Positions 9,444 to 16,754 of a DNA stretch of 16,773 nt are shown piece after piece. The notes below the pieces were generated by a model. The model made no database searches and was not told the origin of the DNA. It saw only the letters and a program-made list of their open reading frames with translations. The first letter of the stretch is position 1. Each line of letters opens with the position of its first letter. A program made the position numbers and the translations under genes. The DNA comes from an uncultured Lachnospiraceae bacterium (GTDB lineage Bacteria; Bacillota_A; Clostridia; Lachnospirales; Lachnospiraceae), in the NCBI GenBank assembly GCA_947177885.1, contig CAMWWF010000017.1:1-16773 (forward strand), written 5' to 3'.

Positions 9444-9929
9444 TCAAGGCGTCCCGGTAGGCGCAGGTGTTTCCTTTACCTTCGCCTTGTTCAGAGAGTT
9501 CTGTATCGCCTCCAGCAGCACCAGGGAGGTATACTTACTTTCGGAGGTGTAAGTGACCTGATCCAGAGACTGATTTTCGTAAACCTGTTCACAGATCGTG
9601 TCGAAGGTGGGCTCCAGCAGCGGGTACATGGTGGTCACGGCTTCATTTAAGTTTACCATACGGATGGAAGTGATGGTGTTCTTATCCACAATGACTTCCA
9701 CATCGATGGTCTGGGCTCCCAGAATCAGTTCAGTGGTATAAATACCGGGTATGTAAACGGAGCCGACAGTAGCAGAGACCTCTTCGTCAGGTACATTGTT
9801 TTCTTCTTTTTCTCCGGGCAGAAACATCATCACCAGCAGGATGATGAACAGGATTCCCAGAAGGGCAAAGATACCTGTATAGATCAATTCTTTCATGTGA
9901 AGTACAACGATTTTTGTCTTAGCGCTCAT
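9444..9929 (-). CDS. Membrane-anchored protein with a degenerate FMN-bind-like domain
   Basis: This 161-residue protein is encoded convergently to nadE and divergently from glnA. The start is ATG (reverse of 9927-9929) with AAGGGG upstream; the frame stays open further upstream but without a ribosome site. Residues about 15-37 are one strong hydrophobic helix (ELIYTGIFALLGILFIILLVMMFLP), so the rest is probably outside the membrane. The segment GIYTTELILGAQTIDVEVIVDKNTITSIRMV...DQVTYTSESKYTSLVLLEAIQNSLNKA matches the layout of the FMN-bind domain (strand pair, then D.vSGAT.TS..l..A...AL). The SGAT-TS flavinylation site reads S-E-S-K-Y-T-S, so the threonine that would carry FMN is Lys. It is likely a non-flavinylated relative of unknown function. 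The C-terminus ends in a Pro/Thr tail. Confidence 0.75.
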   Translation of the reverse strand: MSAKTKIVVLHMKELIYTGIFALLGILFIILLVMMFLPGEKEENNVPDEEVSATVGSVYIPGIYTTELILGAQTIDVEVIVDKNTITSIRMVNLNEAVTTMYPLLEPTFDTICEQVYENQSLDQVTYTSESKYTSLVLLEAIQNSLNKAKVKETPAPTGTP

Positions 9930-10012
9930 CCCTATTCCCCTTAAATGTGTATCCGTATTTATTTCTTTATAGTATATATGTGAGGATTTCAGAAAATATA
10001 CATGATTTATGA

Positions 10013-10042
10013 TTGACAAGACATGGCAACGATTGCTATTAT
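10013..10042 (+). promoter_or_regulatory. Strong candidate promoter of glnA
   Basis: A perfect TTGACA (10013-10018), an 18-nt spacer and TATTAT (10037-10042), with TG at 10034-10035 (extended -10). This is the best promoter in the window. A start near 10049 gives a leader of about 113 nt before the glnA ATG. The region between here and 9930 is shared with the divergent gene, whose own promoter is not clear. Confidence 0.75.
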
Positions 10043-10053
10043 GGCTATGGGAC

Positions 10054-10122
10054 AAGGGCGTTCTACATGGGGGAGAACTGCCCTTATTTATATAGTTCGG
10101 GCCGTAGCGGTATGGCTGGACT
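10054..10122 (+). ncRNA. ANTAR-type dual-hexaloop leader element of glnA
   Basis: Two hairpins lie in tandem in the glnA leader. The first pairs AAGGGC (10054-10059) with GCCCTT (10080-10085) and GTTCT (10060-10064) with AGAAC (10074-10078). With C10066-G10073 paired and A10065 bulged, the loop is ATGGGG. The second pairs AGTTC (10094-10098) with GGACT (10118-10122), GGCC (10100-10103) with GGCT (10114-10117), and GT (10104-10105) with AT (10112-10113), leaving loop AGCGGT. Both loops are six bases with A at position 1 and G at position 4. That is the established recognition pattern of ANTAR regulators such as EutV. An ANTAR gene lies immediately downstream of glnA. The folding is by eye; the single-base bulges are the weak points. 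Confidence 0.7.
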
Positions 10123-10131
10123 GTGACGACA

Positions 10132-10149
10132 CTACCATTATATGGGAGG
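10132..10149 (+). promoter_or_regulatory. Hairpin covering the glnA Shine-Dalgarno sequence
   Basis: CCAT (10135-10138) pairs with ATGG (10142-10145) around loop TAT, and CT (10132-10133) pairs with AG (10147-10148) across one mismatch. The paired 3' side overlaps GGGAGG (10144-10149), the only ribosome site for the ATG at 10163. It is short, so the effect may be modest, but it lies just 3' of the second ANTAR hairpin. Confidence 0.4.
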
Positions 10150-10162
10150 CGCGATCGATCTT

Positions 10163-11494
10163 ATGAATAAGTATACAAAAAATGATATTCTGAAACTGGT
10201 GGAAGAGGAGGACGTAGAGTTTATCCGTTTACAGTTCACAGATATGTTCGGCAATCTGAAAAATATTGCCGTGACGGCAAATCAGCTGGAGAGGGCGCTG
10301 GACAATAAGTGTATGTTTGACGGCTCGGCCATTGACGGCTTTGTGGGTATTGAGGTGTCCGACATGTTCCTTCACCCTGACTTTTCCACCCTGGAAATTT
10401 TCCCGTGGAGACCCCAGCAGGGCAAGGTGGCAAGACTGCTGTGCGATGTTTACCGCGCGGACGGTACTCCTTTTGAAGGCGATCCCAGGCTGGTGCTGAA
10501 GCGTGCCATCAGAGATGCGGAAGCTTTGGGTTACACTTTTGAGGTGGGACCGGAATGTGAATTTTTTCTCTTTGACACGGATGAAAATGCCATGCCCACC
10601 ACGGAGACCGGAGAGCAGGCAGGTTATTTTGACATAGGTCCTCTGGACGGGGGAGAGAACGCGCGCCGGGATATTGTCATGACGCTGGAGGATATGGGGC
10701 TGGTCATTGAGGCTTCCCACCATGAGATCGCACCGGCACAGCATGAGATCGACTTCCGGTATGACGAAGCGCTTACCACAGCGGATAATATCATGACCTT
10801 TAAACTGGCGGTACGCACCATTGCGAAGCGCCATGGATTGCACGCTACTTTTATGCCGAAGCCCAAGTTTGGCGTAAACGGTTCCGGAATGCATATCAAT
10901 ATGTCCATGAGGAAGGGCGGGAAAAATATCTTTGAGGATAAGAGTGACCCGAACGGACTCAGCAGGGAGGCATATTGGTTTATCGGCGGTATCATGAAGC
11001 ATATCCGGGGAATGGCGGCCATCACCAATCCTCTGGTAAATTCGTATAAGAGGCTGGTGCCCGGCTTTGCCGCGCCGGTTTATATTGCGTGGAGCACCGC
11101 CAACAGAAGCTCTCTGATCCGCATCCCGGCTGAGGGAGGCGGCGGCACAAGGATTGAGCTTAGAAGTCCGGATTCCGCCGCGAATCCGTACCTGACGCTG
11201 GCGGTCTGCCTGAAAGCGGGATTGGATGGGATGATCAATCGGATCGATCCTCCGGAAAGCGTCAATTGCAATATATATAACATGACAGACGGGGAAAGGT
11301 GTGCGCTGGGCATCCGCAATCTCCCGGGAACACTCTTTGAAGCCCTGGAAGAAATGAAGAGAGATGAACTGGTTCTTGATGTGCTGGGAAGTCATCTGGC
11401 CGAAAAGTATATTGCGGCGAAAGAAGCGGAGTGGCAGAAGTACCGCGCCAGTGTATCGGAGTGGGAGATACGGGAATATTTGTACAGATACTGA
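10163..11494 (+). CDS. glnA: Glutamine synthetase, class I-alpha
   Basis: This 443-residue enzyme joins ammonia to glutamate with ATP, the main entry of nitrogen. The ATG at 10163 gives the N-terminus MNKYTKNDILKLVEEEDVEFIRLQFTD, in register with Bacillus GlnA; an ATG at 10142 adds seven residues with no ribosome site. Active-site motifs are intact: GPECEFFLF, EIAPAQHEIDF, NGSGMHINMS, NRSSLIRIP and ELRSPDSAANPYL. The length and lack of the beta-type insertion and adenylylation region mark it as the alpha type, which is not controlled by adenylylation. Residue 62 is Gly (FVGIEVSDM) where Bacillus subtilis has Arg62, a residue needed for glutamine feedback inhibition. The usual A/S-R-G in the PAxRG loop reads E-G-G. 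It follows a structured ANTAR-type leader and precedes an ANTAR regulator. Confidence 0.97.
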   Translation: MNKYTKNDILKLVEEEDVEFIRLQFTDMFGNLKNIAVTANQLERALDNKCMFDGSAIDGFVGIEVSDMFLHPDFSTLEIFPWRPQQGKVARLLCDVYRADGTPFEGDPRLVLKRAIRDAEALGYTFEVGPECEFFLFDTDENAMPTTETGEQAGYFDIGPLDGGENARRDIVMTLEDMGLVIEASHHEIAPAQHEIDFRYDEALTTADNIMTFKLAVRTIAKRHGLHATFMPKPKFGVNGSGMHINMSMRKGGKNIFEDKSDPNGLSREAYWFIGGIMKHIRGMAAITNPLVNSYKRLVPGFAAPVYIAWSTANRSSLIRIPAEGGGGTRIELRSPDSAANPYLTLAVCLKAGLDGMINRIDPPESVNCNIYNMTDGERCALGIRNLPGTLFEALEEMKRDELVLDVLGSHLAEKYIAAKEAEWQKYRASVSEWEIREYLYRY

Positions 11495-11553
11495 TATCCA
11501 ATGCTCATGTCGGAGGGTACTTTTCATCCGGATCTGAGATTCCTCAGAGCGGA

Positions 11554-11583
11554 ATCATGGGGGTAAGCATCATGGAGGTAAGC
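11554..11583 (+). repeat. 15-bp tandem duplication that doubles the ribosome site of the ANTAR gene
   Basis: ATCATGGGGGTAAGC (11554-11568) is followed directly by ATCATGGAGGTAAGC (11569-11583), differing at one base. The second copy holds GGAGG (11574-11578), well placed 7 nt before the GTG start at 11586. The first copy holds the changed GGGGG. The unit is 15 nt, so the duplication would not disturb a frame. Confidence 0.8.
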
Positions 11584-11585
11584 AT

Positions 11586-12134
11586 GTGACGAATATTATT
11601 ATAGCCTTACCGAAACAGGAGGATGCAAGAGGGATCAAAAATATACTGGTCCGAAACGGTTTTCAGGTGACGGGAGTCTGTACTACAGGAGCTCAGGCCA
11701 TCAGTCAGGCAGACGGTCTTAACGACGGTATCATAATATGCAGCTTTAAACTGGCGGATATGGTGTATTCGGAATTATATGACTGTATGCCCTGTGGGTT
11801 CGAAATGCTTCTGATGGCTTCCAACCGCCTGCTCAGCGAGTGCGGGGGAAATGGTATCGTGTGTCTTTCCATGCCGTTAAGAGTCAATGATCTGATCAGT
11901 ACTGTGGGGATGATGTGTGAGGGGATCCGACGCAGACGGCGGAAGAAAAGATTCACCCCCGGGGTGCGAAGTGCGGAGGAGGAAGCGGATATAAAGGCGG
12001 CCAAGGAACTTCTCATGGCACGGAACCATATGACGGAAGAGGAAGCGCACAGATATCTGCAAAAGTGCAGTATGGACAGCGGGACTAACATGGTGGAGAC
12101 GGCTCGCATGGTGTTGTCTGTGATGCAGGAATAG
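11586..12134 (+). CDS. ANTAR-domain RNA-binding regulator with a pseudo-receiver domain
   Basis: This 182-residue cytosolic regulator lies 91 nt behind glnA. The C-terminal part (about 130-180) is a clear ANTAR domain: DIKAAKELLMARNHMTEEEAHRYLQKCSMDSGTNMVETARMVL. ANTAR domains bind paired hexaloop RNA hairpins and change terminator formation or translation. Residues about 1-110 follow the response-regulator fold (MTNIIIALPKQEDARGIKNILVRNGFQVTGVCTTGAQAI), but the acidic pocket reads PKQED and the phosphoacceptor region IIICSFKLADM has Cys-Ser where Asp is expected. An Arg-rich linker (RRRRRKKR, 115-122) joins the halves. Input is therefore probably not phosphorylation. The start is GTG with GGAGG 7 nt upstream. 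It resembles the glnA-linked NitR/GlnR-type ANTAR proteins of Clostridia. The likely target is the glnA leader at 10054-10122. Confidence 0.9.
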   Translation: MTNIIIALPKQEDARGIKNILVRNGFQVTGVCTTGAQAISQADGLNDGIIICSFKLADMVYSELYDCMPCGFEMLLMASNRLLSECGGNGIVCLSMPLRVNDLISTVGMMCEGIRRRRRKKRFTPGVRSAEEEADIKAAKELLMARNHMTEEEAHRYLQKCSMDSGTNMVETARMVLSVMQE

Positions 12135-12356
12135 TGTGTTTCGGATTTCGCACGGCAAAGATATTATTGAGGTGGAACGTACATTTGACGGGATCAGGAA
12201 GTATCAGGAGAAAACTATATTGAGGGTATCGTTTTTTGGAAGATGGTATTCCCGGATGTAAGACCAAGCGTTCCGATTTTGGATTTAGGTGGGAATAGAA
12301 TAGCGGATGCGGAACAAAATACCGTAAGCGTCAATGGAACAGGAGGCGGACATGTT

Positions 12357-13355
12357 ATGAAATTTACGAAAATGCAGGGGTGTGGAAATGATTATGTCTA
12401 TATTAATGGTTTTCAGGAGAAGGTCCCTGCGGGGGAAAAGCCGGGGCTGGCGAGAAGGCTCAGCGACCGTCATTTCGGTGTCGGGAGTGATGGCGTGATC
12501 TTTATCAATCCTGCGGAAGAAGCGGATTTCGAGATGGAGATGTATAATGCGGACGGCACCAGATCGGAGATGTGCGGAAACGGCATCCGTTGTGTGGCGA
12601 AATTCGTCTATGACAGGGGACTGACGGATTCGGAGCACATCAGTGTGGTCAGTGCAGGGCAGATAAAGTATCTCAGTATGGTGATAGCGAGACAGCATCC
12701 GTGGGACAGAGGAGTGGTCAAAAAGGTGCGGGTGAACATGGGAAGCCCTGTGCTGAAACCGGAACAGATCCCCGTATCCTGTAAAGCCGTGTCTGCGGAC
12801 CGATATCACGGATCACAGGAGGGTATGGCGTGGGCTTCCAAAGCCTGTCCGGACGGAAGCGGGGAAGAAGCTTCTTGCGCTGATACGGGGATGGAGAGGA
12901 ACAGAGCGGCGGAGGACAGGATTGTCAATGTCCCTATTGAAGTCAGCGGAAAGCAATATCGGATGACCTGTGTCTCCATGGGAAATCCGCATGCGGTTAT
13001 TTTCATGGAGAATGTACAGAGCCTGGATCTGGAGCGCATCGGTCCCGCTTTTGAGAATCATGAGTGTTTTCCCAATCGGGTAAATACCGAGTTTGTGGAG
13101 ATCCTTGACAGGCGGCATGTATTTATGAGAGTCTGGGAGCGCGGAACGGGGGAAACCCTGGCCTGCGGGACAGGTTGCTGCGCCACGGCGGTGGCATGTG
13201 TGCTGAATGATCTGACGGATTCTGACATAACGGTTAAACTTCTGGGTGGAGAATTACAGATCGAGTGGGACAGAGAGCAGAATCTTGTGTATATGACCGG
13301 CCCTGCAGAGACGGTATTTGAGGGAGAGATACCGGATCTGAACTATGAAGATTAG
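12357..13355 (+). CDS. dapF: Diaminopimelate epimerase
   Basis: This 332-residue enzyme turns LL-diaminopimelate into the meso form for peptidoglycan and lysine. The two catalytic cysteines are in place: C73 in [13 protein letters not shown] and C270 in [14 protein letters not shown]. The N-terminus [16 protein letters not shown] and the motifs [11 protein letters not shown] and [11 protein letters not shown] are standard. The ATG at 12357 has AGGAGG at 12341-12346; the frame is open upstream to 12243 but without a ribosome site. The protein is about 50 residues longer than usual. The excess lies at about 143-188, a hydrophilic Gly/Ser/Ala/Cys-rich stretch between IPVSCKAV and [14 protein letters not shown], at a loop far from the catalytic motifs in sequence. 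It is in an operon with dapL, 35 nt apart. Confidence 0.95.
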
Positions 13356-16424: not shown

Positions 16425-16754
16425 CATATTGAAAATGCCATGAAGGAGACTCTTGTCAAGGGAAACGACAGGAAGACAGCGTCACCGACTGAGAGCGCTG
16501 TCAGTGGAAGCGGATAAAGGGAACACTCCGGAGCAGGCTGCCTGAACAGGAAATACGGATCATTTAGGGGTGACAGAACCTGACATGATCCGGTACACAT
16601 TATTAGGGCAGCACGTTGCATGCGTTAAATGCGAGAGAGGGAACTGCCGGGAACACCTTTGATGGAAGGTGCGGCGTTTCAATGCGGGTGGTACCGCGGA
16701 TAATGTAAATTATTCGTCCCGGGATGCAGAAAACTGTGTCTCGGGACTTTTTTT
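16425..16754 (+). ncRNA. T-box riboswitch, probable asparagine (AAC) specifier
   Basis: This is a complete leader that senses uncharged tRNA. The conserved T-box AATGCGGGTGGTACCGCGG lies at 16681-16699, with the TGGT bulge at 16689-16692. Stem I is closed by GGAG (16445-16448) with CTCC (16526-16529); above it TTGTC (16453-16457) pairs with GGATAA (16512-16517, one base spare). The specifier loop between these helices is AGGGAACA (16518-16525), and the three bases before the last A are AAC, Asn. CGGATCAT/ATGATCCG (16556-16563, 16585-16592) forms stem II, and CACCTT/AAGGTG (16654-16659, 16666-16671) forms stem III. The controlled gene starts beyond the window: an asparaginyl-tRNA synthetase or asparagine-supply gene is expected. 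The specifier is read by eye and is less certain than the class. Confidence 0.93.
16716..16754 (+). terminator. T-box terminator hairpin
   Basis: GTCCCGGGA (16716-16724) pairs with TCTCGGGAC (16739-16747) with one G-T pair, extended by CAG/CTG around an AAAA loop, and seven T follow (16748-16754). It competes with the antiterminator that contains the T-box sequence, so read-through into the gene beyond the window depends on uncharged tRNA. Confidence 0.93.

Follow-up and report, generated by a model that had tools for sequence, protein, structure and literature searches.

The dual-hexaloop ANTAR RNAs eut, nasF and amiE, read by the proteins EutV, NasR and AmiR, share a hexaloop with A at position 1 and G at position 4 (A1 and G4), a C-G closing pair, an overlap with the 5′ arm of a terminator and an ANTAR partner. 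The same C:G closing pair, A1 and G4 make up the NasR rule obtained by systematic evolution of ligands by exponential enrichment (SELEX), as given in the accessible part of that study (PMC7496416). For EutV, the available text of PMC8934654 reports similar binding of single hexaloops and of the pair (3.1 and 6.0 versus 3.8 μM), defines the minimal ANTAR site anew as one hexaloop and leaves open why antitermination needs both hairpins. A link to nitrogen metabolism is already known in general terms. The ANTAR protein NitR of Clostridium saccharobutylicum is described in the accessible portion of a review as acting on glutamine synthetase (GS) and glutamate synthase (GOGAT) genes by antitermination on nitrogen limitation (PMC6316151). 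Here we analysed a 16,773-nucleotide stretch of an uncultured Lachnospiraceae bacterium (contig CAMWWF010000017.1; "the window"), in which a glnA leader is followed by glnA and an ANTAR gene. A previous interpretation made from the letters alone, hereafter the sequence-only reading, had drawn two tandem A1/G4 hexaloop hairpins in this leader. We find a different element, consisting of one conserved ANTAR-type hexaloop hairpin (P) and an overlapping terminator-type hairpin (T), which also precedes other nitrogen genes in related genomes. The leader features, glnA and the ANTAR gene described below lie on the forward strand.

The promoter is built from the -35 hexamer TTGACA (10013..10018) and, after an 18-base spacer, the -10 hexamer TATTAT (10037..10042), so that transcription is predicted to start near 10049-10050. 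Hairpin P, TGGGAC[AAGGGC]GTTCTA at 10048..10065 (-3.7 kcal/mol), was missed by the sequence-only reading. Its loop AAGGGC (10054-10059) carries A1 and G4 and is closed by the pair C10053-G10060, close to the NasR SELEX rule. P overlaps T, which occupies 10054..10085 (-13.3 kcal/mol) and is followed by a U-rich stretch at 10084-10093. The positions shared by both are 10054-10065: because the loop and the 3′ arm of P double as the 5′ arm of T, the two hairpins are mutually exclusive.

For comparison, contigs were scanned with the window's ANTAR protein, which yielded 179 relatives; the best 80 were kept (L001-L080), and in all 80 glnA lies immediately 5′ of the ANTAR gene. The window and 78 of these loci gave 79 leaders, two having been left out where a contig end cuts glnA (L031, L065). 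A promoter was called in 73 of the 79 (none in L015, L017, L019, L043, L045 and L057; in L015 and L045 part of the element is visible farther upstream), with an exact TTGACA in 72 of the 73, window counted. A 63-row alignment of leaders, the window among its rows, omits L006, L039, L067, L068, L074 and duplicates, as well as L058 for its length. An initial hairpin finder returned a hairpin in 65 of the 73 promoter-bearing leaders and took the terminator apex in several rows (e.g. L027, L033, L037); the counts given for P come from other analyses.

Pairing within P was assessed in 138 distinct 18-mers from 179 sites, with positions numbered 1-18. The conserved stem comprises the inner four pairs (10050-10053 with 10060-10063) around a loop of consensus AARGGY. 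Of the 138 sequences, 136, 138, 136 and 127 preserve pairs 6-13, 5-14, 4-15 and 3-16, respectively, against shuffle maxima of 136, 135, 135 and 119, and compensatory changes occur at three of these four pairs. The closing pair, C-G in 135 of 138, is too invariant for a covariation test. Among the 77 distinct sequences that do not stem from glnA leaders, the other three inner pairs are intact in 77, 77 and 68, where shuffles reach 76, 77 and 64; here pair 4-15 (77/77) is matched by shuffles, while 5-14 and 3-16 are not. At least three contiguous P pairs form in 59 of the 63 aligned rows and in 115 of the 116 regulon loci described below, and 94.9% of the P cells in the alignment are paired, compared to 40.8-59.4% when the pairing is slid. 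The G at loop position 4 is present in all sites (179 of 179); at loop position 1, 156 sites have A and 23 have G. The distance from the -10 hexamer to the 4-base-pair P arm is 6-8 nucleotides in 65 of 69 leaders. Thus, the message should begin with P, and there is no space for a hairpin upstream of it.

Hairpin T is likewise conserved in position and pairing, with a U tract next to it in most relatives. In the alignment 85.8% of its cells are paired, one pair exchanges GC for AU in 11 rows, and none of 500 shuffles reaches its paired cells or its covariation score. The z of the whole element row is below -1.5 in 61 of the 63 rows. The free fold beats the P-forced fold by 9.4 kcal/mol on average (62 leaders), and in 108 of the 116 regulon loci the T base carries TTTT. 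A GGG in the T loop (window 10067-10085) is kept in 53 of 68 glnA leaders; once P has formed it can pair with the CCC of the T 3′ arm, giving a 7-base-pair hairpin in the window. We considered such GGG-CCC re-pairing as a common mechanism and rejected it: CC is re-paired in 44 of 62 P-forced glnA leaders, yet by eye the GGG is missing from many glnN leaders.

To look beyond these leaders we used a covariance model of the element (R1), whose given structure is T and not P. It holds the P flank as sequence, so that in its matches the flank letters, but not their pairing, are partly expected. Against this model the window, one of the 63 training sequences, scores 48.6 bits (E 1.2e-12). With E up to 1 for the 14 genomes of chosen loci and up to 0.001 for 150 Lachnospiraceae and 245 Clostridia genomes, matches were obtained in 14/14, 79/150 and 30/245 genomes, respectively. 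From the chosen-locus genomes 15 loci were read and 9 kept; L101, L105, L106, L107 and L109 lie in a conserved coding region by eye, and L102 has no matching gene. Together with 107 loci from the Lachnospiraceae scan, in which the glnA leaders L012, L036, L058 and L062 were not recounted and L093 and L096 were counted from the chosen-locus scan, this gives 116 regulon loci, none of which is the same DNA as any of L001-L080. A search of Rfam 15 returned no match at the glnA leader element, even at E 10.

The genes behind the 116 loci are glnN (GS III, 42), glnA (28), glnK (8), amtB (2), a circularly permuted ATP-grasp gene (6) and others (30), and all eight glnK loci have amtB next behind glnK in the gene tables. 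The others include glutamate synthase gltB (Pfam in L165, by eye in L189 and L206), PurF (Pfam in L172, by eye in L180), and by Pfam a RelA/SpoT protein (L099) and a class-I glutamine amidotransferase (L108). Assigned by eye are CTP synthase (pyrG, L098), ATPases of amino-acid ABC transporters (L152, L153) and diaminopimelate epimerase (L132, L151). Thirteen loci without a clear gene (L140, L143, L144, L145, L156, L166, L173, L188, L191, L204, L207, L211, L214) stay in the denominators. In the wider Clostridia sample, 16 of 28 loci precede glnA, glnN or glnK (tblastn) and four more precede glutamate-synthase-like genes by eye, one of them 645 nucleotides off; one lies before a relative of the L154 protein, and seven have no fitting gene. 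This L154 protein starts MAAF(D/E)(K/R)V; proteins with this start have the element in three genomes (L154, L185 and L219), and the first 260 residues, tested for L154, have no Pfam match. The sequence-only reading had described the module as self-contained, a claim refuted by related genomes, where the same element also precedes further nitrogen genes. The accessible part of Ramesh 2012 (PMC3369931) likewise predicts ANTAR motifs upstream of genes for the ammonium transporter, for P-II and for glutamate, glutamine and arginine synthases. Those sites came from a two-hairpin model, whereas P/T has one hairpin.

The distribution of ANTAR proteins is consistent with this regulon. An ANTAR match is present in 131 of the 150 Lachnospiraceae genomes, with exactly one in 128 of those. 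It accompanies the element in 77 of 79 element-bearing genomes, compared to 54 of 71 others (p 1e-4), and as called in 27 of 30 element-bearing versus 97 of 215 other Clostridia genomes (p 2.4e-6). In the window the ANTAR gene (11586..12134; PF03861, 57.2 bits, cut-off 27.3, E 1.4e-15) encodes a receiver-like N-terminal domain followed by ANTAR, the architecture of EutV, Rv1626 and AmiR by sequence and fold matches. A structure model (predicted local distance difference test 88.9, predicted template-modelling score 0.65) matches the folds of Rv1626, EutV, RNA-bound EutV and AmiR with template-modelling scores of 0.47-0.65 by query length.

Receiver sites were mapped by alignment to EutV and Rv1626 and in a 23-row alignment. 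In contrast to EutV, the window protein lacks the phospho-Asp and the conserved Lys, as does the AmiR pseudo-receiver: the Asp is replaced by Ser53 (Ser in 15, Gly in 7 and Asn in 1 of the 23 rows) and the Lys by Met96 (Met in 21, Leu in 2). Because both residues are replaced in 23 of 23 proteins, the sequences exclude phosphorylation at the usual site as the signal. Our guess is that the signal comes from glutamine synthetase, GlnK or a metabolite interacting with the protein. Several RNA-contact residues also differ from EutV. Eleven EutV residues are reported to touch RNA in the available text of PMC8934654; three of these positions (Lys149, Glu160, Met172) are identical in 23 of 23 rows, by a mapping that uses an inferred offset of 2. 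We also considered a strict link between a single hairpin and a missing phospho-Asp. It was rejected, as by eye the Asp is present in the three double-hairpin genomes (L272, L273 and L274) but also in three of eight single-hairpin genomes (L278, L280 and L281; not L275, L276, L277, L279 and L282).

Taken together, we consider it likely that the window carries one switch of a nitrogen-assimilation regulon controlled by one-hexaloop ANTAR antitermination. The glnA transcript would open with P, a hexaloop of the kind that ANTAR proteins recognise (A1, G4, C-G closing pair). When the regulator is absent, T would displace P, over which it is favoured by an average of about 9 kcal/mol, and transcription would stop near +45. 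An active ANTAR protein, presumably under nitrogen limitation, would capture P as it leaves the polymerase and so block T; with T blocked, glnA and the ANTAR gene would be read. The same P/T arrangement before glnN, glnK-amtB, gltB and others would form a regulon served by the usually single ANTAR protein of the genome. Because the ANTAR gene sits behind its own switch, a positive loop may result. The proposal of the sequence-only reading that the downstream ANTAR protein acts on the glnA leader via an A1/G4 hexaloop thereby gains indirect support, through hairpin P and not through the hairpins it had named. With somewhat less assurance, we favour the wider view that one-hexaloop ANTAR antiterminators are a natural class across Lachnospiraceae and other Clostridia, located at +1 in glnA leaders, where the first hairpin would serve as landing site and antiterminator with no recruitment hairpin and where, in this clade, one ANTAR protein lacking the phospho site would run a nitrogen regulon.

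Compared to the dual-hexaloop ANTAR RNAs, the P/T element has one hexaloop, at the predicted +1 with no upstream room for a recruitment hairpin, and the loop and 3′ arm of P together make the 5′ arm of T. Two tandem hairpins, the mark of the dual-hexaloop RNAs, were not found in it, and we therefore do not file P/T among them; it looks like a one-hexaloop variant that works in the same way. Literature searches, with subscription papers mostly outside their reach, returned no paper on one-hexaloop ANTAR glnA leaders in Lachnospiraceae. The design is simpler than the known two-hairpin switches, and searches with two-hairpin models may have missed it. If correct, a large gut family would control ammonium assimilation through a single short RNA switch, located ahead of the genes for glutamine synthetases, GOGAT, ammonium transport and enzymes that use glutamine. 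A one-hexaloop regulon at +1, beside the double-hexaloop glnA leaders of some other Clostridia, would make the question of why both hairpins are needed for antitermination directly testable.

Several results weigh against this interpretation. The outer P pairs 2-17 and 1-18, though formed in the window, are at chance (79/138 versus 76.7 shuffled; 53 versus 52.2). The initial finder returned no hairpin of at least three pairs in 8 of the 73 promoter-bearing leaders (L011, L026, L039, L062, L067, L068, L074, L075), and in L019, L043 and L057 neither promoter nor element was found within the 230 nucleotides examined. For T, 147 and 252 of the 500 shuffles reach the observed numbers of doubly changed pairs and pair types, respectively; TTTT follows T in only 43 of the 63 aligned leaders, and the window's own U tract is weak. 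The p values for co-occurrence ignore kinship and incomplete assemblies, and one genome (G125) has the element before glnN with neither an ANTAR protein nor a close glnA found, while in the other ANTAR-less element genome (G148) the contig ends inside glnA. Several called matches of the covariance model look false, by eye L228, L240 and L244; L226, L233, L237 and L238, from ANTAR-bearing Clostridia genomes, are doubtful. The EutV contacts are only partly kept, Tyr164 being replaced by His in 22 of 23 proteins and Arg142, Lys143 and Lys147 being kept in 1, 3 and 1 of 23. Furthermore, EutV antitermination in vivo requires both hairpins (PMC8934654 in its accessible part, among other sources), and for NasR the affinity for one hairpin is about 12-fold lower (about 12 μM versus 1 μM).

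On one rival explanation, an ANTAR dimer binds the two hairpins drawn in the sequence-only reading, with the loops ATGGGG and AGCGGT, and both can indeed be drawn in the window. The first of these hairpins is a real fold but corresponds to T, i.e. a terminator-type hairpin and not an ANTAR hexaloop. The ATGGGG loop (10067..10072) lies at the T apex, set off by a single C-G pair beside a bulge, and its A1/G4 pattern is not kept among the relatives: in 68 leaders an A..G hexaloop can be drawn in 28 and a T..G hexaloop in 25 when one bulge is allowed, and without bulges the counts are 11 for A..G and 17 each for T..G and T..C, with an apex loop whose length by eye ranges between about 4 and over 10 bases. 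The second hairpin (10095..10121, loop AGCGGT at 10106-10111) folds with up to 14 pairs and one bulge, and stems of at least 10 pairs with such a loop arise in only 0.65% of 2000 shuffles of that stretch, so that its fold in the window exceeds chance. It lies outside the conserved element, however, and by eye has neither a following U tract nor an overlapping terminator. Between terminator and start codon the closest relatives compared (L001-L005) contain no A1/G4 hexaloop of even three pairs, and as far as seen hairpin 2 is therefore private to the window sequence; the downstream stretch holds an A1/G4 hexaloop with at least five pairs in 4 of 48 leaders, against 1.5 in shuffles. The sequence-only reading had itself named stems or loops not conserved across relatives as the finding that would speak against it, and this is what hairpin 2 shows. 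With one hairpin being the terminator, the other unconserved and no conserved second hexaloop at the T apex, 5′ or 3′ of P, the tandem pair has to be given up as the element, and we assign it next to no probability. A subtler possibility is that the dimer binds P together with a degenerate hexaloop at the T apex. Candidates exist, such as TTAC[AGTGGA]GTAA (L012), TGC[AGTGAG]GCA (L079) and ATC[AGAGCT]GAT (L058); the GGG of the T loop is frequently kept, and 3′ of P an A1/G4 hexaloop occurs in 23 of the 116 loci versus 7.6 in shuffles (at least five pairs) or in 32 versus 16.4 (at least four pairs). Such an excess is expected, because shuffling destroys the built-in terminator hairpin, and 5′ of P the count is at chance (24/116 versus 24.0). 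The bulge-free A..G loop trails T..G and T..C and leads only when one bulge is allowed, and by eye it is absent from many glnN apices; we regard this arrangement as improbable. As a control, 20 ANTAR-bearing Clostridia genomes without a listed match of the covariance model were picked by hand, and 22 glnA loci were read from 19 of them. Double hexaloops were found in four of the 22 leaders (L257, L258, L260, L269; three genomes), with linkers of 19-21 nucleotides, whereas the linkers of eut are shorter (5-12 nucleotides). L258, for example, has TTGCGC[AATGGC]GCGCAG and GTACTC[AACGGC]GAGTAC, the second overlapping a terminator by eye. Thus, the method sees doubles where they are present. Five leaders (L251, L252, L256, L259, L263) have, by eye, a single hexaloop over a terminator, so that single elements extend past the matches of the model; in the remaining 13 neither arrangement is clearly visible.

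Two further explanations would keep the conserved letters and assign them another role. The dyad GAAC-N6-GTTC at +1 could be a DNA operator for a repressor, with T as a separate terminator, and its nearly constant spacing to the -10 hexamer, seen in 65 of 69 glnA leaders, would fit such a site. In the P stem, however, G-U is tolerated (59 seen, 85.6 expected) while A-C is avoided (8 versus 36.5; rough p 0.004), a signature of RNA that favours a hairpin over a DNA dyad. The nearly fixed loop letters are needless for a dyad, P overlaps T, and ANTAR-type double hairpins precede glnA in some other Clostridia; an operator is thus very improbable. Alternatively, P/T may be a real attenuator that is flipped by a factor other than the ANTAR protein behind glnA. 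The partial conservation of the EutV contacts and the element-bearing genome in which no ANTAR protein was found are compatible with this. On the other side, P fits the ANTAR hexaloop rule, element and ANTAR protein co-occur, the ANTAR gene stands right behind glnA, and the three matches in ANTAR-less Clostridia genomes are those that look false by eye. Another factor is accordingly unlikely, although we give it some weight, and the one-hexaloop ANTAR switch remains the interpretation that we prefer.

The sequence-only reading was right about the promoter, about glnA and about the ANTAR gene behind it. The glnA gene (10163..11494) encodes a type I glutamine synthetase (TIGR00653, 543 bits, cut-off 429; also Pfam), and GGGAGG at 10144..10149 is, from sequence and position only, its probable ribosome-binding site. 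The nearest proteins and loci to the window are from Lachnospiraceae, Acetatifactor included. The next gene after the ANTAR gene is dapF (12243-13355; Pfam). Genes that look like dapF by eye are preceded by a P/T copy of their own in two other genomes (L132, L151); because of these copies, dapF may be a regulon member. Genes for a glutamine-type polar amino-acid ABC transporter (GlnP/GlnQ-like, with scores under the equivalog cut-offs) lie at 182-1586, and by eye ATPase genes of such transporters bear the P/T element in L152 and L153. Divergent from glnA, an open reading frame of 203 residues on the reverse strand (9444-10055) has no Pfam or NCBIfam match and by eye a probable membrane anchor. 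At the far end of the window, positions 16431-16724 (+ strand) match a T-box leader (65.4 bits, E 1.6e-12, under the gathering score of 93), the controlled gene of which lies beyond the window end.

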